A DNA stretch of 64,000 nucleotides, taken from a virus. Positions 46,646-63,262 of this stretch are shown here, piece by piece (the first letter of the stretch is position 1; each line of letters begins with the position of its first letter). The DNA lies in IMG/VR virus record IMGVR_UViG_3300045999_010887, positions 1 to 64,000 of that record; one strand, 5' to 3'. The translations under genes were made by a program, and so were the position numbers. The notes beneath the pieces were generated by a model, which did not search any database, was not told the DNA's origin, and saw only the letters and a program-made list of their open reading frames with translations.

Positions 46646-46888
46646 CTATTCTGCTTTAGGTTTGTCCCATTCCATCACGTACTGCTGGGTACGTAATAAA
46701 TCGAAATATGCCGCAGAAGATTCTTTCATGCATTCATAAATAGTACTTTCCATGTAGCCACAACCCTTGAGGAAATCCACAACGTGGGTGACTACATCGT
46801 CAGCAACTAATGCTTTGAATTCATAAAGAAGTTTGGTGTTCTCATCCTCGTAAAGCAGGGTGAATTGATCGTGAGTTGGTGTTGACAT
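46646..46888 (-). CDS. Small acidic protein
   Basis: 80 residues: THDQFTLLYEDENTKLLYEF then VTHVVDFLKGCGYMESTIYE. A compact beta-alpha protein. Its start shares one base with the SSB stop, so it is probably made with SSB. Unknown function. Confidence 0.55.
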   Translation of the reverse strand: MSTPTHDQFTLLYEDENTKLLYEFKALVADDVVTHVVDFLKGCGYMESTIYECMKESSAAYFDLLRTQQYVMEWDKPKAE

Positions 46889-47703
46889 CAGAAGGGTACT
46901 TCGTCGAGTTCAGGTGCATTGCCGTAGTGACCAGGCAGATCAGGCAGTCCACCACCAGAGGCAGCGTTCCAAGGATCCGCTGGCTCCTCAGCAGTGCGGC
47001 CACCCCAAAGCGGTGCGACCTTATCGGAGTTAGCCACTACAGTCTGAGGGCGAATCGATTGATTGGCTGTGTCGCCTGTCACCTTTGGCGCCAAGGTCAT
47101 GGACACCAGTTGAATCTTGGTGACTTGACGGCGCTGATTACTTTCTTTATCTTGCCAGGCATCGGTGACTAGACGACCATTGATCGTTAAGCCTGTCCCT
47201 TTACGCGTGAAATCAAGTAAGAGCTGAGCATTGTTCAGCTTGTCTTGATGGGAATTAATAGCGTAAAAATTAAAGAGATCTGCTTGATTGCGTCCGGTAT
47301 TAACGGAAAGCGTTTGATTGCAGATCATCAGACCATCTGCCGTTGTCTTAAAGGCGCGTGTGTCATCCTGCTGGATGTCTTTAACGCAACGACCACTAAG
47401 AATGATTGTGTTTAGGATCGGAAACGATTCCGTGACCGTGGTAATGACGCCACCATGGAGCGAGTGGGTGCGTGTCTCCAGGTCATAGCGCAGCTTGGCG
47501 CCATGAATGTAGATCAACGAGTTCTTTGCAGTGCGTGCAAAACGCTCAGAGTTTTTGCCATAGACGTTGAGTTCAATTGGAGTTGCTGCCTTGTTACCAA
47601 CAGGTGGCAGCAAGACATTGCAACGCAGGGCGTAAGACGTTGCAGAGATGGATACCTCACGGGGTTCCTCTGTGGTTTGGGCACAGACAAAAGCTTGGTT
47701 CAT
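46888..47703 (-). CDS. Single-stranded DNA-binding protein with two OB domains
   Basis: 271 residues. Coats ssDNA during replication. Residues 95-210 are a typical SSB OB fold (NTIILSGRCVKDIQQDDTRA, LLLDFTRKGTGLTINGRLVT). The first 90 residues look like a second OB fold (SYALRCNVLLPPV, IELNVYGKNSERFAR). The C-terminus is Gly/Pro-rich and ends in LDEVPF, the acidic tip used by SSBs to recruit partners. C/A-rich leader (CTCACACAACC). Confidence 0.75.
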   Translation of the reverse strand: MNQAFVCAQTTEEPREVSISATSYALRCNVLLPPVGNKAATPIELNVYGKNSERFARTAKNSLIYIHGAKLRYDLETRTHSLHGGVITTVTESFPILNTIILSGRCVKDIQQDDTRAFKTTADGLMICNQTLSVNTGRNQADLFNFYAINSHQDKLNNAQLLLDFTRKGTGLTINGRLVTDAWQDKESNQRRQVTKIQLVSMTLAPKVTGDTANQSIRPQTVVANSDKVAPLWGGRTAEEPADPWNAASGGGLPDLPGHYGNAPELDEVPF

Positions 47704-47730
47704 GTGATGCCAAAAGGTTGTGTGAGAGGC

Positions 47731-47755
47731 AGTTTAACGTCTTACCTCAAGGACG
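47731..47755 (-). other. CGTC/GACG hairpin with TTAAACTG flank, copy 3
   Basis: Minus strand: CGTC, a 10-base loop that includes the stop of the zinc-ribbon gene, GACG, then TTAAACTGCCTC. Upstream of the SSB leader. Confidence 0.5.
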
Positions 47756-54900: not shown

Positions 54901-54924
54901 GATGTTGTGTTGAGTGTAGGTTGG

Positions 54925-55008
54925 TGCAGACGGCGGGAGTCGAACCCGCAAGGGCAAATGCCCGACGCATTTTAAGTGCGTTACGTATACCTATTCCGTC
55001 ACGTCTGC
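54925..55008 (-). tRNA. tRNA-Leu (TAA)
   Basis: 84 bases. Acceptor GCAGACG/CGTCTGC, anticodon arm ACGCA-CTTAAAA-TGCGT with anticodon TAA, long variable arm GGGCATTTGCCC and T arm GCGGG-TTCGACT-CCCGC. Discriminator A, no encoded CCA. Its first 18 bases also encode the end of the gene at 54991-55218, and a structured element (55011-55054) ends two bases before it. Confidence 0.93.
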
Positions 55009-55218
55009 ATCACTTGGACTTACACTCACATCAATTGATGTGTGATGCCAAGTGTGATCATGAGGTAACGGCTCAGTGCCGTAGTCCCATGTATCATAGT
55101 CATCCTCGTTACGAGGATCCTTATCGATCAGGATGTACTGAGGTGAGTTATCTGTGATGTACTCACCAATGTTTGCCATTGCCATGGCAAGCAATTGATC
55201 ATCAGTGTAATCGGGCAT
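54991..55218 (-). CDS. Small acidic protein whose end overlaps tRNA-Leu
   Basis: 75 residues: DYTDDQLLAMAMANIGEYIT then PRNEDDYDTWDYGTEPLPHD. The last codons (ADVTE and TAG) lie inside the tRNA, and residues 50-70 lie over a conserved RNA element. tRNA maturation would therefore cut this message near its 3' end. Alternatively the protein is real only in its first part. Unknown family. Confidence 0.45.
   Translation of the reverse strand: MPDYTDDQLLAMAMANIGEYITDNSPQYILIDKDPRNEDDYDTWDYGTEPLPHDHTWHHTSIDVSVSPSDADVTE
55011..55054 (-). ncRNA. Covarying double-stem element D6
   Basis: Minus strand: outer stem CACTTGG/CCAAGTG (7 bp), internal loop CAT opposite TGTAAGT, inner stem around CACATC/GATGTG with AATT loop. 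It ends two bases before tRNA-Leu. Outer stem differs from copies D1-D4 but pairs fully. See findings. Confidence 0.65.
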
Positions 55219-55226
55219 GAGTTAAA

Positions 55227-55256
55227 GGGCATCCATATAACGAGGATAGGATGCCC
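55227..55256 (-). other. Spacer hairpin GGGCATCC/GGATGCCC
   Basis: A perfect 8-bp stem with a 14-base loop in the 49-base spacer between the stop at 55268 and the start at 55218. On the minus strand TTTAACTC and ATG follow. Confidence 0.55.
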
Positions 55257-55267
55257 CTGCTGTGGCC

Positions 55268-56992
55268 TTAGCTTTCAGATCTTAGCTGTTTCTCACGAGA
55301 TTGCAAGGCCTGCTTGAAGGCAAGTGCGTACTCTTCCCTTTGCTCCTCGTTCAGTCGCTGGTTGGCTACGCCAGCAATCTGCTTGACGTTCATGACACCC
55401 ATGGATACATCCAGTTGAATGGTGAAGGTTGGCCTACCATCAATCATGCAAAGCACAATGAAGTGCTTACGTTTCTTGATGTCTTCTGCATACTGGGACG
55501 CAGAGCCCACACAGTTGCGGACTGCTTGTCCCCACTGTGCAAGTTGATGCGTATCAATGGGTTGCAGGAATGTCCAGCTATGGCCATTCATCTCTACATG
55601 CACAGGTGCAGGGAATAGATCCTGGTGCAGTGACTCCTTCTTGTTCTGAATCTTCCATGCCTCTGCTTGCACATAGTCATGGAAGTCAGGCATGCGCCAA
55701 CGCTTTGGTGGCTCAAGTGTTTTACCTGCCTCAAGGATACGCATGATCATTGAGAAGGTATCGTTCATCTCATACCATGAATGAACAAAATAGTTGTAAT
55801 CAGAATGGATTAAAGAACGAGCTGACGCAGACTTCTCTTCATTAGATTTTTCAGAATACTTACGCATCATATTGAGGAACGATGTAACACTCATGTGCTC
55901 ACGTAGCCAAACAATGAGTTCATCACTGGTACGCAAGTGATTGAGATTGACTTGACGTAACTCAGCAAAGTATGTACGGTAATGATCAAGCGGACAGTCG
56001 GGCCATACTCGATTGATAAAGTAGATTGAATTAGTCGTCTGCTCAAATTCTTTGTAACCATACTTAATTGCTTTACGCAATTCGTTATCAACATTGTTGT
56101 ACTGTTCAACAGAGCGATCAAGCATTGTTTGCAAACGCTTCTTGATAAATGGAGTTGTAATGATGTGCTGAATATCGTTGATGGTTAGATAGGTTAAAGA
56201 TGTGTAATTATTCTTAGCTGTCCATGCATTAGCAAGGTCAACTATATTGTCAACCGTTAACTTGAATACTGAACGATCTTCGATGCAGTTTGTTAATGCA
56301 AATGGAAACTCAAGTGCATCAAGAAGGTTATTACATTTGATGCGATCAAACATGGAATGACTGTCGTTCCATGTTGGGATAGTTTCCATCAAAGTTGACT
56401 CAAAACTATTGATTGCATCATTCATATCACGTGACTTCTGGTAGTAACTAGCAATACCCATGGCACGCCAATTACGTGCATCATTACCTGCAATGATGTC
56501 TTGCTTAGTTATGGTACGTGAGTACGTAAAGGTTTGCGCGCCACGTGTACTGGCGTGTTCGGTGCAACGATCTTTAGTATTCCAGATATGACGAGGTAGT
56601 ACCTTAGCTGCAGCTGCAGTGTTCTTGAATGCATAGGCATAGCCATAGATGTAGTCCTCACCTTTGGCAGGTAGCCATGCGGCATACCAGCATTGCTCAA
56701 AGTGATAGAGGATTGCAATGGTAATTGTACGTGCTTGTGGTGTGGCAACATCAACCACCTTGGTAAAGCGATGGTAACGTTCTGATACACCTGACGAATT
56801 GATACGATCAATTGCATCTTGTTGATAGCTACCACGCACCACATTCTCAGGGATGAGATGTGGGATATTACCCAATGGATATTTAGCTTTCTTTGTAGTC
56901 TTCTTGGGTTCCTGTTCTTTGACCAAAGCCTTAAGCTTTGGATCATAAGCCAAGAGTTCTTGTTGCAGGCAAGAGGGAATTTGGAAGTGCAT
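55268..56992 (-). CDS. PcfJ-like protein
   Basis: 574 residues. The C-terminal 150 match the PcfJ family: WTFLQPIDTHQLAQWGQAVR then NCVGSASQYAEDI (h-C-V-G-x-Y box), TFTIQLDVSMGVMNVKQIAG and ANQRLNEEQ. PcfJ-like proteins occur on plasmids and phages without an established biochemical role. The N-terminal 400 residues are helical with several aromatic motifs. It uses the C/A-rich leader (AATTCAACTC). Confidence 0.65.
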   Translation of the reverse strand: MHFQIPSCLQQELLAYDPKLKALVKEQEPKKTTKKAKYPLGNIPHLIPENVVRGSYQQDAIDRINSSGVSERYHRFTKVVDVATPQARTITIAILYHFEQCWYAAWLPAKGEDYIYGYAYAFKNTAAAAKVLPRHIWNTKDRCTEHASTRGAQTFTYSRTITKQDIIAGNDARNWRAMGIASYYQKSRDMNDAINSFESTLMETIPTWNDSHSMFDRIKCNNLLDALEFPFALTNCIEDRSVFKLTVDNIVDLANAWTAKNNYTSLTYLTINDIQHIITTPFIKKRLQTMLDRSVEQYNNVDNELRKAIKYGYKEFEQTTNSIYFINRVWPDCPLDHYRTYFAELRQVNLNHLRTSDELIVWLREHMSVTSFLNMMRKYSEKSNEEKSASARSLIHSDYNYFVHSWYEMNDTFSMIMRILEAGKTLEPPKRWRMPDFHDYVQAEAWKIQNKKESLHQDLFPAPVHVEMNGHSWTFLQPIDTHQLAQWGQAVRNCVGSASQYAEDIKKRKHFIVLCMIDGRPTFTIQLDVSMGVMNVKQIAGVANQRLNEEQREEYALAFKQALQSREKQLRSES

Positions 56993-57022
56993 GAGTTGAA
57001 TTGATTGAGTAGGTACTGAAAA

Positions 57023-57054
57023 GCCTGGGACTTACACCTTACGGATGCCCAGGC
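57023..57054 (-). ncRNA. Covarying double-stem element D1
   Basis: Minus strand: outer stem GCCTGGG/CCCAGGC, internal loop CAT opposite TGTAAGT, short inner stem CC/GG with GTAA loop. Placed between the stop at 57068 and the leader of the PcfJ-like gene. Confidence 0.7.
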
Positions 57055-57067
57055 ATGATGTCAAACG

Positions 57068-57310
57068 TTAGTCAAGTTCGACCAGTTGCCACTGAGGATC
57101 GAGCTGATCAAGATAGGCGCAGAAGCCATCTTCATCAAGAGGAAATGGTTCCTCTGGATCCAGCTCGACAGTTGTTGTACACAATGCAGGAGCCCACTCT
57201 TCAGGGTCGAGGCGAGTCGCCCGATAGAGCAGGCGCATTTCGTCAACAACTGCTGTAACTGTGACATGAGTATCAGTGAAATGAGTGTCTTCAATGGCTA
57301 AGACTGTCAT
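57068..57310 (-). CDS. Small acidic protein
   Basis: 80 residues from ATG 57310 (TGATG overlap with upstream stop). TVLAIEDTHFTDTHVTVTAV and ATRLDPEEWAPALCTTTVEL. Beta-rich, acidic end. Unknown. Confidence 0.55.
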   Translation of the reverse strand: MTVLAIEDTHFTDTHVTVTAVVDEMRLLYRATRLDPEEWAPALCTTTVELDPEEPFPLDEDGFCAYLDQLDPQWQLVELD

Positions 57311-57495
57311 CAGTTGTCCTCGATGTAGGAACAGTTGGTGGTTTTGATGAGGCGGTACTTCATCCACAGACGTGCTGTGTCGTACTCGCCATTGAAGCGT
57401 GCTTCATCTAACACATTTGAATTCGCCCTGCGCTGTGCACAGGCAGCAAGATTAATGCGATCAAACATGTTGATGTAGTCTGTGTATGTAGCCAT
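57310..57495 (-). CDS. Small hypothetical protein
   Basis: 61 residues: DYINMFDRINLAACAQRRAN then EYDTARLWMKYRLIKTTN. Helical. C/A-rich leader with CAACTCATTTCAATTC. Unknown. Confidence 0.5.
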   Translation of the reverse strand: MATYTDYINMFDRINLAACAQRRANSNVLDEARFNGEYDTARLWMKYRLIKTTNCSYIEDN

Positions 57496-57537
57496 GAATT
57501 GAAATGAGTTGAGGTAATGGACAAAAGCTGGGACTTA

Positions 57538-57555
57538 CACCTTACGGATGCCCAG
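57538..57555 (-). ncRNA. Covarying double-stem element D2
   Basis: Minus strand: CTGGG/CCCAG outer stem, CAT and TGTAAGT internal loop, CC-GTAA-GG inner stem. Differs from D1 only in outer flank. Between the stop at 57560 and the start at 57495. Confidence 0.68.
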
Positions 57556-57559
57556 ATCT

Positions 57560-57760
57560 TTAGATTATCTTAATGTTTGATTTGCTCAAACCTGTGCCTG
57601 GGATACTGATTGATCCACGCACACCAGACTCACGTGCATTGAGTGTGAGTTGGAACGGTCCAAGCTGAAACGATTTGCTATAGGATTGAATACCATTTTC
57701 TGTGATATTGAATCCAGCAATGGTCTTATCAAAGCTGATTGGTGATTTGTCTTTAGTCAT
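57560..57760 (-). CDS. DUF4236-like protein
   Basis: 66 residues. FQLGPFQLTLNARESGVRGS then ISIPGTGLSKS matches the DUF4236 pattern (G-h-x-h...G-h-x-h-S-h-x-G-x-G-h-S). Small all-beta. Four-base overlap with the upstream gene. Unknown function. Confidence 0.6.
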   Translation of the reverse strand: MTKDKSPISFDKTIAGFNITENGIQSYSKSFQLGPFQLTLNARESGVRGSISIPGTGLSKSNIKII

Positions 57761-57969
57761 TTCAAGTTCTCGGGCATTAGTTGATTGATGTCATCTTCAT
57801 CTTCAAAATTTGTCATTACAAACTTTTGTCCATCGGGGGCAACAAAGCCCCCGATAAAACCAATACCGTATTTGTCTGCTGATTCTTTCATCTTGGCTAC
57901 AAGCTGCATAGCTTGAAGTCTTTGAAGATCAATTGAATCAGGAATACGAGGAGTGTTGGAACTAGACAT
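57757..57969 (-). CDS. Small hypothetical protein
   Basis: 70 residues: IDLQRLQAMQLVAKMKESAD then IGFIGGFVAPDGQKFVMTNF. A helix then a beta unit, acidic end. Leader AATCAACTCAACACC before ATG. Confidence 0.5.
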   Translation of the reverse strand: MSSSNTPRIPDSIDLQRLQAMQLVAKMKESADKYGIGFIGGFVAPDGQKFVMTNFEDEDDINQLMPENLK

Positions 57970-58076
57970 TGGTGTTGAGTTGATTGGTGGTCTAGAAGAC
58001 TTGGGTAGTCTACCAGGGTTGTCAAGGGATGGTAAAGGGGGAATACATAATAGTTTCTTATAGAACTAAAGGTATC

Positions 58077-58097
58077 CCCCTGGTACTTCCCCAGGGG
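58077..58097 (-). other. Spacer hairpin CCCCTGG/CCAGGGG
   Basis: 7-bp GC-rich stem in the 138-base spacer 57970-58107. On the minus strand the run after it is GATACCTTT, so it is a weak terminator at best. Just upstream lies CTTGACAACCCTGGTAGACT, similar to the sequence near 43300. Confidence 0.5.
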
Positions 58098-58107
58098 TTG
58101 TAGGGGA

Positions 58108-58554
58108 CTACGAATGCATAGCCTGGTGCTCCTGCCAAGCAGCTGCGTGCATTTCTGCTGCAGTGATTGGAGGTTCACCTGGTTCGTTCGGAGTTGGGTC
58201 GTAGTCGAGTTCTTCTTCCAGCATGGAGATCATTTCTTCGACTAGACCCTTGGCATGTGGTGTAAGGTGTTCATCCATTTCATGGCGCTTGCTCTCGCGA
58301 GCTTGCACATTCTTTAAGATGGAGTGAACTTCTGCAAGGTAGTAATACTCGTTCTGTTGTGCGTAATACATCCGTAATAATGCTTGAATTTCAGATGCAA
58401 CCTTGGGGCCAGCTTGATGAAGTGATTGAATGCGGTACAAACCAAAGTCCAAGATCGCTTGAATAGTTTGTAGTTGTGCACGCATCAAAATGTTCCTCGC
58501 CCTGGTACCAAGGCAAGGACAATCAAGCACTGATGTTTCTGGTTTTAAATGCAT
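58108..58554 (-). CDS. RNA polymerase alpha-CTD-like protein
   Basis: 148 residues. Residues 8-60 read LDCPCLGTRARNILMRAQLQ, TIQAILDFGLYRIQSLH, then QAGPKVASEIQALL. This follows the alpha-CTD of RNA polymerase (LDLSVRAYNCLKRAGI..TVEEL...L..I.NLG.KSLEEI), a helix-hairpin-helix fold that contacts UP elements and activators. The N-terminal domain of alpha is absent. It may mimic or displace the host alpha-CTD; that is inference. The tail is acidic. Confidence 0.62.
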   Translation of the reverse strand: MHLKPETSVLDCPCLGTRARNILMRAQLQTIQAILDFGLYRIQSLHQAGPKVASEIQALLRMYYAQQNEYYYLAEVHSILKNVQARESKRHEMDEHLTPHAKGLVEEMISMLEEELDYDPTPNEPGEPPITAAEMHAAAWQEHQAMHS

Positions 58555-58583
58555 GGTTGGTTTGGAGTTAAGGTTGGATTAAA

Positions 58584-58623
58584 GCCTGGGACTTACACCA
58601 CATTGTTATGTGGACGCCCAGGC
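58584..58623 (-). ncRNA. Covarying double-stem element D3
   Basis: Minus strand: outer stem GCCTGGG/CCCAGGC, internal loop CGT opposite TGTAAGT, inner stem CCACAT/ATGTGG with 4-base loop. The inner stem is longer than in D1 and D2 and pairs perfectly. Confidence 0.72.
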
Positions 58624-58632
58624 TATGACTGA

Positions 58633-58675
58633 AGTATTGGCATGTATTGGCACTTTGTACGTGCCACCCAATACT
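58633..58675 (-). other. Long spacer hairpin
   Basis: AGTATTGG/CCAATACT (8 bp) encloses GGCAC/GTGCC (5 bp). It is second in the 58555-58687 spacer, upstream of D3 on the minus strand. Confidence 0.6.
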
Positions 58676-58687
58676 ACGGTATAACGA

Positions 58688-58948
58688 TTACGTTGTCTTA
58701 GGTTCGAGCATGATCCAGCCTGTGTAGTTAGCACTGCTGCGATCAATGGTTACTAAGCCGTGTTCCTCCAGTCTTGTCAATGCTGTGAGGTATTGATCAA
58801 GCCTAGAGTTTTGGACGGGACACCTTGGTACGTAACACGGTGTGTTCTTGTACTTCTTCCTGTGGTTCAGGTAGTACAAGTAGATGTTCCGTTGATTGAT
58901 GCTCAATCCGACTGGCGGTGTCAGCGTTGATGTTGCCGTTGTCATCAG
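58688..58948 (-). CDS. Small protein, possible winged helix
   Basis: 86 residues from ATG 58948 (ATGA overlap). LSINQRNIYLYYLNHRKKYK then LDQYLTALTRLEEHGLVTID and SSANYTGWIML have a helix-turn-helix and wing rhythm. Possible DNA-binding regulator. The frame is open upstream but overlaps the neighbouring gene. Confidence 0.55.
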   Translation of the reverse strand: MMTTATSTLTPPVGLSINQRNIYLYYLNHRKKYKNTPCYVPRCPVQNSRLDQYLTALTRLEEHGLVTIDRSSANYTGWIMLEPKTT

Positions 58949-59405
58949 CAGTAATGTGGAGTTGATTCGGGGTAGACAGTAGCGTATCCGTTGGAGAAGT
59001 TGACTTCGTAGTTGTGGTACGTCGTCGAGAGACCGAGGCTTGGCTGGTCTGCGACTTCGTACTCGTCGAAGTATTGGATGAAGGCTTGGACCGCTTGCTT
59101 CTTGGAGAAGACACAGTGGGTGAGGACTGGGAGTCCTGCTTGGTACCACCATCCGCCTTCTTCTGGACCGCCGTAGTGGAGCGTCGTTTCGTGGACGGTG
59201 ACAGTCGTTGGGTCTTCATGCTCCCACTGTTGGTGGGTTGTGTATCGCTGGATGGCAAAACGTGCTTTCCAGGAGTTGGGGTAGAACTTTTGGAGTTCAG
59301 AGATGTAAGACATTTGATTGCATCAATGAAAGTTGTGATGAGAATTGAAATGATGACAATGATGTGAACAACAATGTCATCTTCGTGTTGCTTAGGCTTG
59401 GTCAT
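58803..59405 (-). CDS. Overlapping frame with membrane segment (overprinted)
   Basis: 200-codon frame from ATG 59405, which lies 14 bases inside the end of the previous gene, a usual coupling distance. It opens with one hydrophobic span (IVVHIIVIISILITTFIDAI) in a stretch that would otherwise be a gap. The remaining 160 residues are Ser/Thr/Lys-rich and cross the two genes below in another frame. Either a small membrane protein with an overprinted tail or only the first 40 residues matter. Confidence 0.4.
   Translation of the reverse strand: MTKPKQHEDDIVVHIIVIISILITTFIDAIKCLTSLNSKSSTPTPGKHVLPSSDTQPTNSGSMKTQRLSPSTKRRSTTAVQKKADGGTKQDSQSSPTVSSPRSKRSKPSSNTSTSTKSQTSQASVSRRRTTTTKSTSPTDTLLSTPNQLHITADDNGNINADTASRIEHQSTEHLLVLPEPQEEVQEHTVLRTKVSRPKL
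58945..59313 (-). CDS. Hypothetical protein
   Basis: 122 residues: MSYISELQKFYPNSWKARFA, QRYTTHQQWEHEDPTTVTVH, then GWWYQAGLPVLTHCVFSKKQ. Aromatic-rich beta/alpha protein that reads clearly as protein. ATGA overlap with the next gene. Unknown. Confidence 0.6.
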   Translation of the reverse strand: MSYISELQKFYPNSWKARFAIQRYTTHQQWEHEDPTTVTVHETTLHYGGPEEGGWWYQAGLPVLTHCVFSKKQAVQAFIQYFDEYEVADQPSLGLSTTYHNYEVNFSNGYATVYPESTPHYC

Positions 59406-59595
59406 CGTAAAGCTCCTGTTCTTGGTTAGGTGTATTAGTCACAGAGAAACCGACGAATTGTCCGTCGATTTCAATGAGTGACCATTCGGATTGATCAGCT
59501 TCACGCATGGCTTCTTCTAGTTCGTATGCACGATCAGCCATTGCGTCAAGCAAGTCTGCATTGCGCTGCTCATCAATGAAGCTAAAATCTTTCAT
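59392..59595 (-). CDS. Small acidic protein
   Basis: 67 residues: FSFIDEQRNADLLDAMADRA, YELEEAMREADQSEWSLIEI then a beta strand. Leader ATTCAACTCAAACC. Unknown. Confidence 0.55.
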   Translation of the reverse strand: MKDFSFIDEQRNADLLDAMADRAYELEEAMREADQSEWSLIEIDGQFVGFSVTNTPNQEQELYDDQA

Positions 59596-59623
59596 GGTTT
59601 GAGTTGAATAAATGAACAGTTGT

Positions 59624-59675
59624 CCTGGGACTTACACCACTTATTGAGAAGAGTTCTCAAGAGTGGAGGCCCAGG
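59624..59675 (-). ncRNA. Covarying double-stem element D4
   Basis: Minus strand: outer stem CCTGGG/CCCAGG, internal loop CCT opposite TGTAAGT, inner stem CCACT/AGTGG extended by TTGAGAA/TTCTCAA. Longest of the copies. Between the stop at 59686 and the next leader. Confidence 0.72.
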
Positions 59676-59685
59676 TGATGTGTGA

Positions 59686-60192
59686 TTAGGCTTTGATGTC
59701 GCTCCAAGCAATACCGCGAGCGATATTACTGATTGCGCAGCCTGTCACGTTGTAACGGCGACCAATAGCTTGGTACGCCTGAGTTTTGCTTGTCCACCCA
59801 CCCATGTACTTCTCATCGTTGATGAGCAGTTTGATTTCACGTACTTGGCTGGGTGTAAGCTTAGGTACAGGACCGCGATAACGTAGATGTGTAGTACCAG
59901 AAGCACCAACAGGTTTGAACTGTGTTGTGGTCTTGGTCTCTTTCCTATCACGTTCTGCAAGTTCCTTTAGATAAGCCAAGCCCTGTTCCTTGGACATGAC
60001 AGGACCATTCATCCGTCCCCGTGACGGTTGCATGGGGGGTTGAGGGGGTGTCTCGATCCATGGACTGCGGATAGGAAAGCCAAGCGTTACTGACGTTCCA
60101 TCCTTGAGGATGGAGATGGTGACCTTACCATCCCTTGTAATCACAGAGACGTGATCGGGGGCGGTCACATCGAGTTGGCTGAGCGCGTCCAT
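59686..60192 (-). CDS. DNA-binding protein with C-terminal helix-turn-helix
   Basis: 168 residues. The N-terminus is a small beta domain (VSVITRDGKVTISILKDGTS), the middle is Pro-rich, and the C-terminus reads LTPSQVREIKLLINDEKYMG, then TKTQAYQAIGRRYNV. This resembles the helix-turn-helix of homing endonucleases but without a nuclease part. May be a regulator derived from one. Confidence 0.6.
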   Translation of the reverse strand: MDALSQLDVTAPDHVSVITRDGKVTISILKDGTSVTLGFPIRSPWIETPPQPPMQPSRGRMNGPVMSKEQGLAYLKELAERDRKETKTTTQFKPVGASGTTHLRYRGPVPKLTPSQVREIKLLINDEKYMGGWTSKTQAYQAIGRRYNVTGCAISNIARGIAWSDIKA

Positions 60193-60320
60193 GAGTGATG
60201 TACTGGAGTTTGAGTGGACTGTTGGGTGAGCTGCCCCTGCCTTGCAGGATGCAGGTAGAGAATAGCTGGTACGTACAGAGATGCAAGTACCAGCCGTAGC
60301 GCTTTGCGTTTGCGGGACAC
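60165..60320 (-). CDS. Possible small membrane peptide
   Basis: 51 residues from GTG 60320: SRKRKALRLVLASLYVPAIL then a polar tail. It fills the gap between two genes and overlaps the next start by 28 bases. A basic start and one hydrophobic span are credible, but the evidence is thin. Confidence 0.35.
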   Translation of the reverse strand: MSRKRKALRLVLASLYVPAILYLHPARQGQLTQQSTQTPVHHSWTRSANSM

Positions 60321-60330
60321 CAGATGTAGG

Positions 60331-60558
60331 TTAGTCGTGTGGGATAAAGTCCGAGTCGTTGAGTAGCTGATGAACTGACAAGCAGTCTTCAGCGATCTCA
60401 TCTCTGGTGCAACCTTCCCATTCGATGGACTGGTCTTCAATGACTTCACAGCCAGCATCTTCGAGCTGGTCGTGGAATTGAGACCAAGTACGTGCGTTGC
60501 CCCAGACATGGGCATAACGACCGGAATGATCAGCGACTAGTGCGATGTGGAGTGCCAT
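60331..60558 (-). CDS. Small acidic protein
   Basis: 75 residues from ATG 60558: ALHIALVADHSGRYAHVWGN then HDQLEDAGCEVIEDQSIEWE. A compact alpha/beta fold. Leader CTACTCAACAGAACA. Overlaps the end of the next gene by 29 bases. Unknown. Confidence 0.55.
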   Translation of the reverse strand: MALHIALVADHSGRYAHVWGNARTWSQFHDQLEDAGCEVIEDQSIEWEGCTRDEIAEDCLSVHQLLNDSDFIPHD

Positions 60559-60754
60559 TGTTCTGTTGAGTAGGGTTGGAGTTGATGTTAGTGATGTCAA
60601 TGCCGATCAGTGCAGGCACTGTGAATGCGGCAATGATGAGGGCAAAGAGAGCAATGCCGTACGACCAAAGTTGATTTGAGCGAGTCTCAGTAGACTCACC
60701 ATAAGAATCAAGGATGATGTACTTGCCTTTGCCCATGGAATAGATGGTCTTCAT
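60530..60754 (-). CDS. Small membrane protein
   Basis: 74 residues from ATG 60754. One hydrophobic span (SYGIALFALIIAAFTVPALI) with charged ends. The frame is open to 61072 but upstream it overlaps the gene at 60756-61019. Unknown role in the envelope. Confidence 0.55.
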   Translation of the reverse strand: MKTIYSMGKGKYIILDSYGESTETRSNQLWSYGIALFALIIAAFTVPALIGIDITNINSNPTQQNNGTPHRTSR

Positions 60755-60755
60755 C

Positions 60756-61019
60756 TTAGATCGTGGCAAGAATGTAACGGACGCAAACCAGATGATCTGG
60801 CTTGAAACCAGGCGGTAGTTCTTCTGCGTAGAACCACTCGCCCTTGACATCAAGCGAGACGCATTCGCTGTTTCGTGCAAAGCCAAGAGCTTTATCACCC
60901 TTGGTGCACCAAACAATGTAGACGCATGCGTCCATGCAAAGGATGTAATAATCATCCTGCTTGATATCAAACGTTTCAAGTGCGTCTTGAATGTCTGAAT
61001 GATCAAATGTAATTGGCAT
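60756..61019 (-). CDS. Small hypothetical protein
   Basis: 87 residues: DIQDALETFDIKQDDYYILC, ACVYIVWCTKGDKALGFARN then GFKPDHLVCVRYIL. Beta-rich with several Cys. Leader ACAACACT before ATG. Unknown. Confidence 0.55.
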   Translation of the reverse strand: MPITFDHSDIQDALETFDIKQDDYYILCMDACVYIVWCTKGDKALGFARNSECVSLDVKGEWFYAEELPPGFKPDHLVCVRYILATI

Positions 61020-61038
61020 AGTGTTGTATGCAATGGAT

Positions 61039-61088
61039 GCAGGGAAAACCCTGCAGAAAACCCACTCATCACAAGGATGAGAAGGGTT
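61039..61088 (-). other. Spacer hairpins before the gene at 61019
   Basis: GCAGGG-AAAA-CCCTGC (61039-61054) and AACCC...GGGTT enclosing CTCATC/GATGAG (61059-61088). Two stable stems in an 80-base spacer. Confidence 0.55.
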
Positions 61089-61099
61089 AAGTGCAGAGG

Positions 61100-61303
61100 T
61101 CAGTTAACGTACTTACTGTTGATGCAGTAATACGTATCACCAAGGAATCCCTTGGTGTAGATCAGGTTGTGCCCTGGTTGGTTATGGCATGTGTTCTTGT
61201 AATGCTCATTGAGCATCTTCTGTCCACAGACGGACAGGATCATGCCAATACCAGTGCCAACAACGATGGCGATAACAGAGTCAGCCAGATGATTGTTAGT
61301 CAT
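61100..61303 (-). CDS. Small membrane protein
   Basis: 67 residues. One N-terminal span (DSVIAIVVGTGIGMILSVCG) followed by a polar tail with Cys and Tyr (HNQPGHNLIYTKGFLGDTYY). Secreted or envelope-anchored. Unknown. Confidence 0.55.
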   Translation of the reverse strand: MTNNHLADSVIAIVVGTGIGMILSVCGQKMLNEHYKNTCHNQPGHNLIYTKGFLGDTYYCINSKYVN

Positions 61304-61306
61304 GAT

Positions 61307-61510
61307 TCAGATGTCTTTCTTGGGAGTGATAACAAATGCCATGTCATCAGGCATCATGAGTGCAGCAGCACGACAACGAATGTCATGCAGCTTCTCTGAT
61401 GCATTAACCGATTGACATGTCTTGGTAGCAACCTTTGCTGTAGTCTTGGTTGCAGTTACTACCCAAGGCAGGAATTCACGTACGTTCTTCCTGAAATTAA
61501 GTGCAGTCAT
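61307..61510 (-). CDS. Small basic protein
   Basis: 67 residues: NFRKNVREFLPWVVTATKTT then RCRAAALMMPDDMAFVITPK. Helical, with a basic start. Leader CACTCAACTCAATGCC. Unknown. Confidence 0.5.
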   Translation of the reverse strand: MTALNFRKNVREFLPWVVTATKTTAKVATKTCQSVNASEKLHDIRCRAAALMMPDDMAFVITPKKDI

Positions 61511-61529
61511 GGCATTGAGTTGAGTGGAA

Positions 61530-61569
61530 GCAGGATATAGAATCCTGCAGTAAAGGGCCGAAGCCCCTT
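61530..61569 (-). other. Spacer hairpins with UUCG-type loop
   Basis: GCAGGAT/ATCCTGC (61530-61548) and GGGC/GCCC (61555-61566). On the minus strand the second loop is C-TTCG-G, an extra-stable tetraloop. Lies between the stop at 61580 and the leader of 61510. Confidence 0.6.
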
Positions 61570-61579
61570 AGAGCAGGAA

Positions 61580-61828
61580 TCAGAAGATCGTTGCGTAAAG
61601 ATTGTCGAGGTGCATCGTGGTAATGTACTGATAGTAATCAGACATTGCAGCTAATAACTCCTTGGTACCAGCAGGAATACCGTTACCAAGAGTTTGTACC
61701 TCACGTTCAATCCAACAAGGATTGCCATAGCAGTCATCAACTTCTACTTCATAACGAAGCATAGTTGATTCACCGCCATGCCAAGTGATACGCTCGGTTG
61801 CACCTTCGTAAGGGTAGTAGCACAGCAT
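61580..61828 (-). CDS. Small hypothetical protein
   Basis: 82 residues from ATG 61828: LCYYPYEGATERITWHGGES then DDCYGNPCWIEREVQTLGNG. Beta-rich. Preceded by element T1 and the leader CTACTCAACACAACACT. Unknown. Confidence 0.55.
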   Translation of the reverse strand: MLCYYPYEGATERITWHGGESTMLRYEVEVDDCYGNPCWIEREVQTLGNGIPAGTKELLAAMSDYYQYITTMHLDNLYATIF

Positions 61829-61846
61829 AGTGTTGTGTTGAGTAGA

Positions 61847-61891
61847 TGCCACGGGATTGTGGCAAGTGTTGTGTGGGGGATTTGATCCCCC
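61847..61891 (-). ncRNA. T-loop plus GTGGCA hairpin element T1
   Basis: Minus strand: GGGGG-ATCAAAT-CCCCC, then TGCCAC-AATCCC-GTGGCA, then the leader. The first loop resembles a tRNA T-loop. First of five related elements. Confidence 0.65.
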
Positions 61892-61905
61892 GGCATCACG
61901 CCTGG

Positions 61906-62100
61906 TCAGAAGACCATCACAACGTCGTCGGCCTCCATCATCTCCTCGAAGGACATGATGCGCACGTCATGCGTGCCTTGTATGCCGTTGTTAAGTTCGG
62001 GTGCATTGAGCTCGAAGTCGCATTGAGCTGCTTCGATTAGCGCCTCTTCCCACTGGAAGGAAACGCCATGTTGCACGCCGTCAATCACAATGAAGTACAT
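61906..62100 (-). CDS. Small acidic protein
   Basis: 64 residues: FIVIDGVQHGVSFQWEEALI, EAAQCDFELNAPELNNGIQG. A beta-alpha unit with an acidic end. Leader TACTTAACTCAACACC. Unknown. Confidence 0.55.
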   Translation of the reverse strand: MYFIVIDGVQHGVSFQWEEALIEAAQCDFELNAPELNNGIQGTHDVRIMSFEEMMEADDVVMVF

Positions 62101-62118
62101 GGTGTTGAGTTAAGTAGA

Positions 62119-62163
62119 TGCCACGAGATTGTGGCAAGTCTGAACCAGGGGATTGCACCCTGG
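62119..62163 (-). ncRNA. T-loop plus GTGGCA hairpin element T2
   Basis: Minus strand: CCAGGG-TGCAATC-CCCTGG, then TGCCAC-AATCTC-GTGGCA. Located directly after the stop at 62182, with CCG-TTTAAG-CGG just before. Confidence 0.66.
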
Positions 62164-62181
62164 AACGCCGCTTAAACGGAC

Positions 62182-62361
62182 TCAGATAGCGTAACCGTTG
62201 GTGATGCACCAGTTACGGTGAAGCGTGTCATGCTCCTTCGGCCAGTCATGTGTAATGCACTGGTGAGCCGTTGCCTTGTCCACAAAATGGATGACGACTT
62301 GGCTACCAATGCCCATGATGGAAGCAGCAATGAGCACGCAGGATGCAATACGTTGAGTCAT
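62182..62361 (-). CDS. Small membrane or secreted protein
   Basis: 59 residues from ATG 62361. A basic start and hydrophobic segment (RIASCVLIAASIMGIGSQVV), then a His/Cys-rich tail (HQCITHDWPKEHDTLHRNWC). Metal binding in the periplasm is possible. Leader CTACTCAACGCAATC. Confidence 0.55.
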   Translation of the reverse strand: MTQRIASCVLIAASIMGIGSQVVIHFVDKATAHQCITHDWPKEHDTLHRNWCITNGYAI

Positions 62362-62377
62362 GATTGCGTTGAGTAGA

Positions 62378-62422
62378 TGCCACGGGATTGTGGCAAGTCT
62401 GATGCCGGGAATTGAACCCGGC
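62378..62422 (-). ncRNA. T-loop plus GTGGCA hairpin element T3
   Basis: Minus strand: GCCGGG-TTCAATT-CCCGGC, a canonical tRNA T-arm in sequence, then TGCCAC-AATCCC-GTGGCA. Not part of a full tRNA. Confidence 0.7.
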
Positions 62423-62435
62423 TGCGCACCAGCTA

Positions 62436-62618
62436 TCAGAAAGGATGATAGTCGACTACCAGAAGATCTTGCTCCCAATCCTCAAAGGATTGGAAGTATT
62501 CAAGAGCTTCTTGCTCGTTGTCAAACACCTTCTCACATCCCTGGAAGTAGGCGTCTTCGAATGTGTAGTCAGCGTAAACAGCAAAAGGATTACGCTTAAC
62601 TTGAACGGAGTAATACAT
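62436..62618 (-). CDS. Small acidic protein
   Basis: 60 residues: YYSVQVKRNPFAVYADYTFE then CEKVFDNEQEALEYFQSFED. Beta then helix. Leader CTACTCAACTCAAC directly before ATG. Unknown. Confidence 0.55.
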   Translation of the reverse strand: MYYSVQVKRNPFAVYADYTFEDAYFQGCEKVFDNEQEALEYFQSFEDWEQDLLVVDYHPF

Positions 62619-62633
62619 GTTGAGTTGAGTAGA

Positions 62634-62678
62634 TGCCACGGGATTGTGGCAATAACTGGACCAGGGTTTGCACCTGGT
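62634..62678 (-). ncRNA. T-loop plus GTGGCA hairpin element T4
   Basis: Minus strand: ATCCG-TTAAAG-CGGGT small stem right after the stop at 62695, then ACCAGG-TGCAAAC-CCTGGT, then TGCCAC-AATCCC-GTGGCA. Stem bases differ from T5 but pair in both. Confidence 0.7.
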
Positions 62679-62694
62679 CACCCGCTTTAACGGA

Positions 62695-62925
62695 TCAGCT
62701 AACTTCGTAAATTGCCCATGACATTGAGTCATAAACCTTCCTGGCGATTTCGCCATTCGGATCGTTAACCTCAATGAAACGGTCAACTATTTCAGCCATG
62801 CAGATTTCATGGCTGACCATTCTCTGACAACAATCTTCAATTGCTGCCTCACGAAGTGAGATCAGCACTTCAAGAGTGTGCGCAAGAGCTTGGTCCACAG
62901 GATTCTCCTGTTGTGTGGTGCCCAT
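62695..62925 (-). CDS. Small helical protein
   Basis: 76 residues from ATG 62925: ALAHTLEVLISLREAAIEDC, MAEIVDRFIEVNDPNGEIAR. Acidic helices. The frame is open upstream into element T5. Unknown. Confidence 0.55.
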   Translation of the reverse strand: MGTTQQENPVDQALAHTLEVLISLREAAIEDCCQRMVSHEICMAEIVDRFIEVNDPNGEIARKVYDSMSWAIYEVS

Positions 62926-62927
62926 CT

Positions 62928-62966
62928 CCACAGGGGGCAATAACTGTGGGAGGGTTTGCACCTCCC
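62928..62966 (-). ncRNA. T-loop element T5 with variant second hairpin
   Basis: Minus strand: GGGAGG-TGCAAAC-CCTCCC, then CCACAG/CTGTGG in place of TGCCAC/GTGGCA. The two stems share two bases. Preceded by TCCG-TTAAAG-CGGG after the stop at 62983. Confidence 0.65.
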
Positions 62967-62982
62967 AACCCGCTTTAACGGA

Positions 62983-63213
62983 TCAGTTGTTCTCCAGCAT
63001 CTCGTCCACGTAGGACTTGATAACCTGGAGGTGTTCGGCAGTAAGTACCTGGCTACGGCCATACTCAAGCAGGTCAAGGACCTGGAGCATGACTTGATCG
63101 CCAGCTTCCTGCCGGGTCGGTACGCCACACATATCGAAGATCTCTTCGCATGACATCTCAGTGATGTCAACGCAGTCGATCTGACGAACGGTGGCGATGG
63201 TGGTGTTGGTCAC
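62983..63213 (-). CDS. Small hypothetical protein
   Basis: 76 residues from GTG 63213: TNTTIATVRQIDCVDITEMS, MLQVLDLLEYGRSQVLTAEH. I prefer this start to ATG 63282 because GGAG lies six bases upstream and because the longer frame would run through element D5. Unknown. Confidence 0.6.
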   Translation of the reverse strand: MTNTTIATVRQIDCVDITEMSCEEIFDMCGVPTRQEAGDQVMLQVLDLLEYGRSQVLTAEHLQVIKSYVDEMLENN

Positions 63214-63228
63214 GGTGTACTCCGGTAG

Positions 63229-63262
63229 CTTGGACTTACACCACTGAAGTGTGGATGCCAAG
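63229..63262 (-). ncRNA. Covarying double-stem element D5
   Basis: Minus strand: outer stem CTTGG/CCAAG, internal loop CAT opposite TGTAAGT, inner stem CCAC/GTGG with 6-base loop. Outer stem differs from D1-D4 with both strands changed, and matches part of D6. Confidence 0.72.

Follow-up and report, generated by a model that had tools for sequence, protein, structure and literature searches.

The stretch analysed here (the window, 64,000 nucleotides (nt) long) is part of an 80,654-base IMG/VR virus record, IMGVR_UViG_3300045999_010887. Towards its end, the minus strand carries six copies of a compact RNA hairpin that we call element D, lying ahead of a tRNA and of several protein-coding genes:

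54922 to 55008, minus strand: tRNA-Leu (TAA), occupying a gene junction immediately 3' of D element 1
55011 to 55054, minus strand: D element 1, ending 2 nt short of the 5' end of the tRNA-Leu
57023 to 57054, minus strand: D element 2, 30 nt ahead of the start of a PcfJ-like gene (55268 to 56992, minus strand)
57526 to 57555, minus strand: D element 3, about 30 nt ahead of a gene of 61 amino acids (aa) starting at 57495
58584 to 58623, minus strand: D element 4, 28 nt ahead of the start of a 148-aa gene (58108 to 58554, minus strand)
59624 to 59675, minus strand: D element 5, 28 nt ahead of a 67-aa gene starting at 59595
63229 to 63262, minus strand: D element 6, 15 nt ahead of a GTG-start open reading frame (ORF; 62986 to 63213, minus strand)

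Each copy is a hairpin of 30-52 nt with an outer stem (P1) ending in GG/CC, an internal loop and an inner stem (P2). Read as the reverse complement of the window strand, the consensus is P1-GG-C-N-U-C-(P2 hairpin)-G-U-G-U-A-A-G-U-CC-P1', and the core of the internal loop is C-N-U on the 5' side and U-R-U-A-A-G-N on the 3' side. An earlier note on this DNA had proposed six such copies on the minus strand, and all were found where it placed them. Five of its spans hold as given; the remaining one, 57538-57555, is the 5' half of copy 3, whose full extent is 57526-57555. The outer stems with differing letters that it described (GCCTGGG/CCCAGGC, CTGGG/CCCAG, CTTGG/CCAAG and CACTTGG/CCAAGTG) pair in all six copies. 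Its CAT-like 5' loop is CAT in four of the six, with CGT and CCT in one copy each, and its statement that the inner stem always pairs was slightly too strong, since the second P2 pair of 55011-55054 is an A-A mismatch. Two window copies close on a tetraloop and have an inner stem of two pairs only.

The short string TGTAAGTCC has six exact matches in the window, each inside a D copy. With one mismatch allowed there were 11 matches, compared with a mean of 12.5 by chance, which is no excess. Thus, the short string alone is no evidence for the family; the whole element is. To represent the whole element we used a covariance model built from 19 D copies of other virus contigs (R1). Searching the window together with the rest of its record, R1 recovered five of the six copies at E values of 1e-10 to 2.5e-5, and the next-best matches had E values of 1.1 and 1.9, with otherwise nothing below E 1. 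The copy at 59624-59675 was missing from this first search (limit E 2, filters off) and scored E 2.7e-5 with a second search tool. Minimum-energy folds of all six copies were better than the shuffle mean (z of -1.1 to -4.3). The weakest fold was that of 57526-57555, which 28 of 200 shuffles equalled.

Wider sets of D copies showed strong covariation, in agreement with the earlier reading of the compensatory changes as a sign of RNA structure. For an unbiased test of P1, we took 109 distinct sites chosen by a pattern blind to P1, a set that includes false matches such as a twister-sister ribozyme (L066). P1 positions 3, 4 and 5 paired at 106, 100 and 79 of these sites, versus 58.6, 65.5 and 45.2 after shuffling. 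Among 51 tetraloop copies, six of nine pairs varied on both sides, and the covariation score was 0.252 versus 0.085 in shuffles, with none of 500 shuffles as high and at most 0.104 when the alignment was slid. The second P2 pair appeared as C-G, A-U, U-A, U-G or G-C and was paired in 139 of 146 copies, from a set that demanded two P1 pairs beyond GG/CC and whose first two P1 rows are therefore true by construction. Because this pair covaries, the nested form of D is supported, and an alternative with two hairpins in a cruciform (GG-CAU-CC and GG-UGUAAGU-CC, each paired locally) is disfavoured. The innermost G and C of P2 are invariant and so cannot decide between the two; a local G-C closing pair, as in the twister-sister SL4 loop discussed below, is possible at that position. 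Leaving the P1 letters free in a search of about 3 megabases of virus DNA gave 180 sites. The inner P1 pairs were GG/CC in 174, a count that is only partly independent because this DNA was gathered mostly with GG/CC patterns.

D is not confined to the window. R1 found it in 84 further virus records: 35 records, the window's included, held 1-7 copies each at E values up to 0.05, and 50 additional records held 1-5 copies each at E values up to 0.01. All scanned records had been picked for carrying D, and these figures describe copy number per record, not frequency. The pattern GGCATCC-N4-34-GGTGTAAGTCC matched at least 119 viral contig stretches, including some chance matches, and a loose rule gave 267 distinct D copies overall. 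Within a record the copies were mostly on one strand and often close together, and the few on the opposite strand scored weakly. In GTDB genomes, scanning with a P1-bearing pattern returned no D, and a P1-free tetraloop pattern returned one site with unpaired flanks, which is a chance match.

The element also appears to be absent from Rfam. The earlier note knew of no riboswitch consensus that fits it, and Rfam 15 likewise gave no match for any window copy at E values up to 5. At the gathering level, Rfam 15 found two tRNAs alone in the window; at E values up to 5, its matches between 54.9 and 64 kilobases (kb) were a tRNA and three sub-threshold hits, none on D. Text searches of the literature showed no paper describing the motif among those listed, with subscription papers mostly and preprints wholly beyond their reach. 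A large screen for structured RNAs of viruses and phages by Fremin and colleagues reportedly appeared around 2023, and D could be among its motifs. Other structured RNAs of cyanophages are named in a 2010 screen (PMC2864571), among them manA, wcaG and PhotoRC-II, which are in Rfam. Their authors associate these motifs with particular gene kinds; D differs from them in lacking an Rfam match.

Relatives of the D-bearing records point mainly to cyanophages. By DNA polymerase, the nearest isolate to the window is Synechococcus phage S-EIV1 (68% identity). S-EIV1 has two D copies, one a UAUAAG variant (E 3.6e-6) and the other with a long P2 that scored poorly with R1 and was revealed by a pattern search. 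Of 63 D-bearing records, 30 match the window DNA polymerase (one, G084, at just 29% identity) and 25 match its major head protein. In another D lineage, the capsid protein shares 66% identity with its counterpart in Synechococcus phage S-CBWM1; psbA was present in one of 35 D-bearing records, and since that record belongs to the S-CBWM1-like capsid lineage, this is a cyanophage lineage. The terminase of a GC-rich D lineage scored best against Synechococcus phage S-CBS3 (47.5% identity, 585 bits) and also matched an Acidithiobacillus phage (50.5% over a shorter stretch, 545 bits), leaving its host uncertain. No informative relative was found for the remaining D lineages, and in one of them an 81-aa gene after D had no match. 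Taken together, D belongs mainly, and perhaps exclusively, to cyanophages. Further direct comparisons gave little: window positions 48-57 kb had no near DNA match among isolated phages, a short blastn search with one D copy yielded 12 partial matches (E 6), neither S-CBWM1 nor the stretch of S-TIM5 examined had a D match below E 1, and the best D match in S-CBS1 and S-CBS3 was at E 1.1.

Two further features of these records stood out. In three relatives of the window virus (G005, G031 and G023), the match to the DNA polymerase gene is split in two. About 770 bases separate the pieces in G005 and G031, where an unbroken 886-aa frame in G031 hints at an intein, and in G023 the two pieces overlap in different frames. 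In the GC-rich lineage, irregular GGC-rich repeats run for roughly 250 nt after D (L364:3700-3960).

D lies mostly between genes. We examined 147 D representatives with flanks at most 60% alike, asking whether the stop of an ORF of at least 40 aa lay near P1 and whether a start lay within 60 nt. Both were near D in 99 of the 147, a start only in 22, a stop only in 15 and neither in 11, as compared with 14.5%, 31.5%, 13.1% and 40.9% of random same-strand places. At least three of the 11 with neither stand ahead of tRNAs (L008, L089 and L203). An ORF of at least 60 aa ended near P1 in 99 representatives (67%, versus 14% of random places), and an ATG opening at least 40 aa followed within 60 nt in 112 of 147 (versus 36%). 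Only 6 copies (4%, versus 46%) fell within an ORF of 120 aa or more. D began 0-7 nt past the stop codon in 70 of 114 copies with a stop found, and the start codon fell 20-34 nt past P1 in 82 of the 112 copies with a start within 60 nt. The leader after D contained 13% G versus 22% in the flanks, carried T at +2 to +4 in 45% versus 25%, and had a Shine-Dalgarno-like string in 10 of 120 cases. Genes around D encode capsid, portal, DNA polymerase, SSB, PcfJ-like and small unknown proteins as well as tRNAs, with no common pathway.

Comparing orthologous junctions showed that D can be exchanged for an unrelated fold. In the window, the leader of ssb carries this companion fold:

47726 to 47755, minus strand: H-type pseudoknot in the leader of ssb (gene 46888 to 47703, minus strand), 22 nt ahead of its ATG

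Its product carries an SSB domain (Pfam PF00436). A search of 30 records left two without an ssb match, and the final set comprised 29 genomes (27 relatives, the window and S-EIV1). Their ssb leaders contained D in 3 cases, the pseudoknot in 25 and neither in 1. Nineteen of the pseudoknots were found by script and six by eye, and some of those six show a mismatch, a shortened second stem or an extended first loop. In the 22 leaders where the fold was found by script, it ended 19-27 nt ahead of the start. The PcfJ-like gene, present in 30 of 38 records, gave a similar picture at 29 junctions (28 fetched plus the window), some from near-duplicate genomes: D in 3, a D-like variant in 1, an H-type pseudoknot in 24 and another hairpin in 1. 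S-EIV1 likewise carries the pseudoknot at this junction. The 24 pseudoknots, assigned by eye and in two cases with a second-stem mismatch, have the form CGUC-CU-GGGCA-U-GACG-UUAAAC-UGCCC with changing stems.

Exchange was not equally frequent at every junction. At the 61-aa-gene junction, D was present in all 20 junctions fetched (24 were found), with P2 ranging from a tetraloop to more than 30 nt. At the 148-aa-gene junction (29 records with a match), 17 of 20 fetched had D, two of the 17 departing from the U-R-U-A-A-G core; by eye, the other three held one pseudoknot-like element and otherwise other hairpins. Both counts used looser D rules than the count of 267 copies.

The pseudoknot is itself common in virus contigs, with at least 119 stretches in a separate scan. 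Its motif, YGUC-CY-NNGNA-U-GACR-UUAAAC-S2', occurs in S-EIV1, its relatives and other virus contigs, mostly about 20-30 nt ahead of starts; at 111 sites analysed, the first ATG was 20-29 nt downstream in 61. The stretches tested had no match in Rfam. In one genome (G023, L462), a tRNA lies directly ahead of the pseudoknot in the ssb leader, another instance of a tRNA at a gene junction.

A folded RNA ahead of ssb recalls the gene 32 operator of phage T4, as described in PMC535899 and PMC3014915. There, a pseudoknot of about 28 nt nucleates cooperative binding of gp32 along the leader; it lies 67 nt ahead of the start codon, and the leader has UUAAA repeats and a Shine-Dalgarno sequence. The compact fold with a leader before ssb, a trait of the T4 system, was present in the D and pseudoknot genomes counted above, and the two systems share a compact fold of about 28 nt between genes followed by an unstructured leader and the ssb start. 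In contrast to the T4 operator, D folds as a nested hairpin that has an internal loop and covarying P1 and P2, its companion being the pseudoknot; it is found at many genes and before tRNAs; and its leader is shorter and mostly lacks a Shine-Dalgarno-like string. The likeness is one of layout. One rival explanation takes it further: D and the pseudoknot would be nucleation sites for SSB, which would coat the leader and repress translation as gp32 does, but at many genes. The presence of one fold or the other in 28 of 29 S-EIV1-like ssb leaders (6 of the 25 pseudoknots by eye), the T4 precedent and the SSB domain in the window all speak for this. Yet D also stands before tRNAs, after genes with no near start and in the capsid operons of other phages, the leaders here are short relative to T4, and the protein is an OB-fold SSB by Pfam, with nothing found here that links it to gp32. 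We consider this explanation unlikely on balance.

Other folded RNAs occupy the same kind of junction. Between 61830 and 62960 on the minus strand, the window has T-arm-like hairpins at several gene junctions (for example, 62404-62422), including GGGTTCAATTCCC, GGGTGCAATCCC and GGTGCAAACC. They have short acceptor-like stems; after most of them come a GCCAC/GTGGC hairpin and a leader resembling CTCAACTCAAC. S-EIV1 contains similar sequence. By eye these hairpins look like truncated tRNAs. Punctuation of transcripts by tRNAs, in which a folded RNA separates cistrons, is a known arrangement, and a tRNA and T-arm-like hairpins fill such junctions in this same genome. D differs in having neither acceptor or T-arm geometry nor a match to tRNA models: ARAGORN and RF00005 found only two tRNAs in the window, and no D copy is among them. 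A T-arm or RNase P mimic was set aside for lack of acceptor geometry.

These junctions also bear on a second rival, in which D would keep cistrons apart and produce stable mRNA ends, either as a site of endonuclease processing or as a barrier to exonucleases. It would fit the start of D within 7 nt of so many stop codons, its position 1-4 nt ahead of tRNA 5' ends at seven loci, the short U-rich stretch after D, and the tRNA gene and by-eye T-arm hairpins at similar junctions. Against it, D bears no known nuclease signature and P2 can be as short as 2 bp. An inner stem of 2 bp is too short for RNase III, and an RNase III site was set aside on this ground. We regard processing or protection as a doubtful explanation, about on a par with SSB nucleation.

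The fixed internal loop offered another route to function. Within the 147 representatives, the variable N of the 5' loop was A in 132. Further stretches came from scans with the loop positions left free, which are not a census, and the loop letters were tallied over all 362 stretches, many of them gathered by the full motif, such that the commonest letters are over-counted. In these tallies, the G-NNN-AAGU pattern held UGU in 141, UAU in 13 and AGU in 4 of 170; GUGU-NNNN held AAGU in 141, AAGC in 15, AAGA in 4 and AAGG in 3 of 188; and the 5' loop was CAU in 86, CAA in 5, CGU in 3 and CUU in 3 of 101. The remainder was scattered in each tally, with many plainly chance matches.

The fixed letters match the SL4 strand of the twister-sister ribozyme (RF02681) through a common 3' loop string, GUG(U/C)AAGUCC. 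It was through this same string that our scan caught L066, which is a twister-sister ribozyme (79 bits) and not D. In the crystal structure (PMC5660989), the SL4 loop has a U-A trans Watson-Crick/Hoogsteen pair and two extruded bases, and an inserted A from another loop stacks between the two A's of SL4 while pairing with the G of that loop. The seventh loop position of SL4, extruded in the crystal, corresponds to a variable position in D. In D, by contrast, this strand forms one side of the internal loop that separates P1 from P2, and there is no catalytic loop. By analogy, the internal loop of D most likely folds as what we term a T-loop-type tertiary motif, its geometry being inferred; the N of the 5' loop may play the role of the inserted base, and the fixed letters may serve folding rather than ligand binding.

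The same comparison bears on whether D could be a small self-cleaving ribozyme akin to twister-sister or lantern, for which the common string and the L066 match might be taken as evidence. The common string is the SL4 loop, however, and not the cleavage loop. Compared by eye with the published descriptions of these loops, D has no counterpart of the twister-sister/lantern catalytic loop, G-C-U-C^A-(A/U) / G-C-N-A-G, and it has just two nucleotides between the C and P2. No window copy matched RF02681 at E values up to 5. A circular permutation of the twister-sister catalytic loop, suggested by CAU and GUAAG flanking the same helix, was rejected because the common string is the SL4 loop and the catalytic-side 5' strand of D is two nucleotides too short. 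Self-cleavage is therefore highly improbable. The earlier proposal of a binding or cleavage site was borne out in part: the loop is fixed, and its letters may hold the fold, but the catalytic loop of twister-sister is absent, so cleavage is not supported. A riboswitch, the other role that a conserved loop in 5' leaders might suggest, is very unlikely given the many unrelated neighbouring genes, the several copies in many genomes, the tRNAs downstream and the replacement of D by an unrelated fold at the same gene.

In sequence comparisons, D is a structured, covarying RNA that holds a characteristic position and exchanges with another fold at some junctions. The reading that we rate highest, with a probability of roughly 0.5, is that D is a genuine RNA element acting in cis on cyanophage mRNAs, where it marks cistron boundaries and works as a boundary or operator element for the neighbouring genes. 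Since unrelated compact folds occupy the same place, function probably depends on a compact fold there, and D looks like one of several interchangeable folds at mRNA boundaries. D typically starts a few nucleotides past a stop codon, and a G-poor leader of about 20-30 nt, in most cases lacking a Shine-Dalgarno sequence, separates it from the next start codon. Under this proposal, its compact shape would fix or protect the mRNA end and keep the leader accessible. Alternatively, like the T4 gene 32 pseudoknot, it could nucleate protein binding along the leader. In either case D probably affects the reading of genes or the lifetime of their messages; we infer this effect on translation or mRNA stability from its placement and exchange.

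Several observations weigh against this proposal. At the seven tRNA loci, the tRNA begins on the same strand directly after D and no start codon directly follows. In a lineage with a phrog_4652 gene, the stop codon of the upstream gene is the UAA inside the D loop, and the distance from D to the next open frame is 96-264 nt, according to which start codon is taken. Leaders of the capsid-gene lineage are longer (ten copies have 45-50 nt and two have 34-37 nt) and, by eye, carry a Shine-Dalgarno-like GGAG. A U-rich tail (at least five T in the eight positions after P1) follows 26 of 147 representatives (18%), versus 5.3% at control positions further downstream; among the six window copies, it follows solely 57023-57054. 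Copies before tRNAs, copies with a stop codon in the loop, capsid leaders with a Shine-Dalgarno string and U tails all count against a purely translational role, and one function may not hold for all D copies. D was never replaced at the 61-aa-gene junction, and thus exchange is not free everywhere. Moreover, were shape alone important, folding would have to account entirely for the strictly fixed core.

The U tails, together with a stable hairpin between genes, raise the question of whether D is instead a transcription element, serving as a terminator, as a stem close to a promoter or in antitermination. This seems improbable in general: 121 of the 147 copies have no U tail, and the next gene mostly starts about 20-30 nt after D, where full termination would be odd. 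Promoter-like hexamers were not enriched upstream of D (42 versus 74 expected), and a promoter there was set aside. A terminator scan listed no D copy, but it is blind to stems broken by an internal loop and says little. Some D copies may nevertheless also act on transcription, given their U tails.

More speculatively, and with a likelihood that we place slightly under that of the SSB and processing explanations, the interchangeable folds of S-EIV1-type cyanophages (D, the pseudoknot and tRNA-like arms) might all dock one phage protein, probably SSB. They would then couple the translation of many genes to DNA replication in a genome-wide switch resembling that of T4 gene 32.

D is a conserved, covarying RNA family without an Rfam match, found in these searches in viruses alone. 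It provides a handle on how phages with mostly Shine-Dalgarno-less leaders separate and express tightly packed genes. As two unrelated folds swap at the same junction, the ssb leader included, their function is testable by swapping one for the other, and both are present in an isolated phage, S-EIV1.

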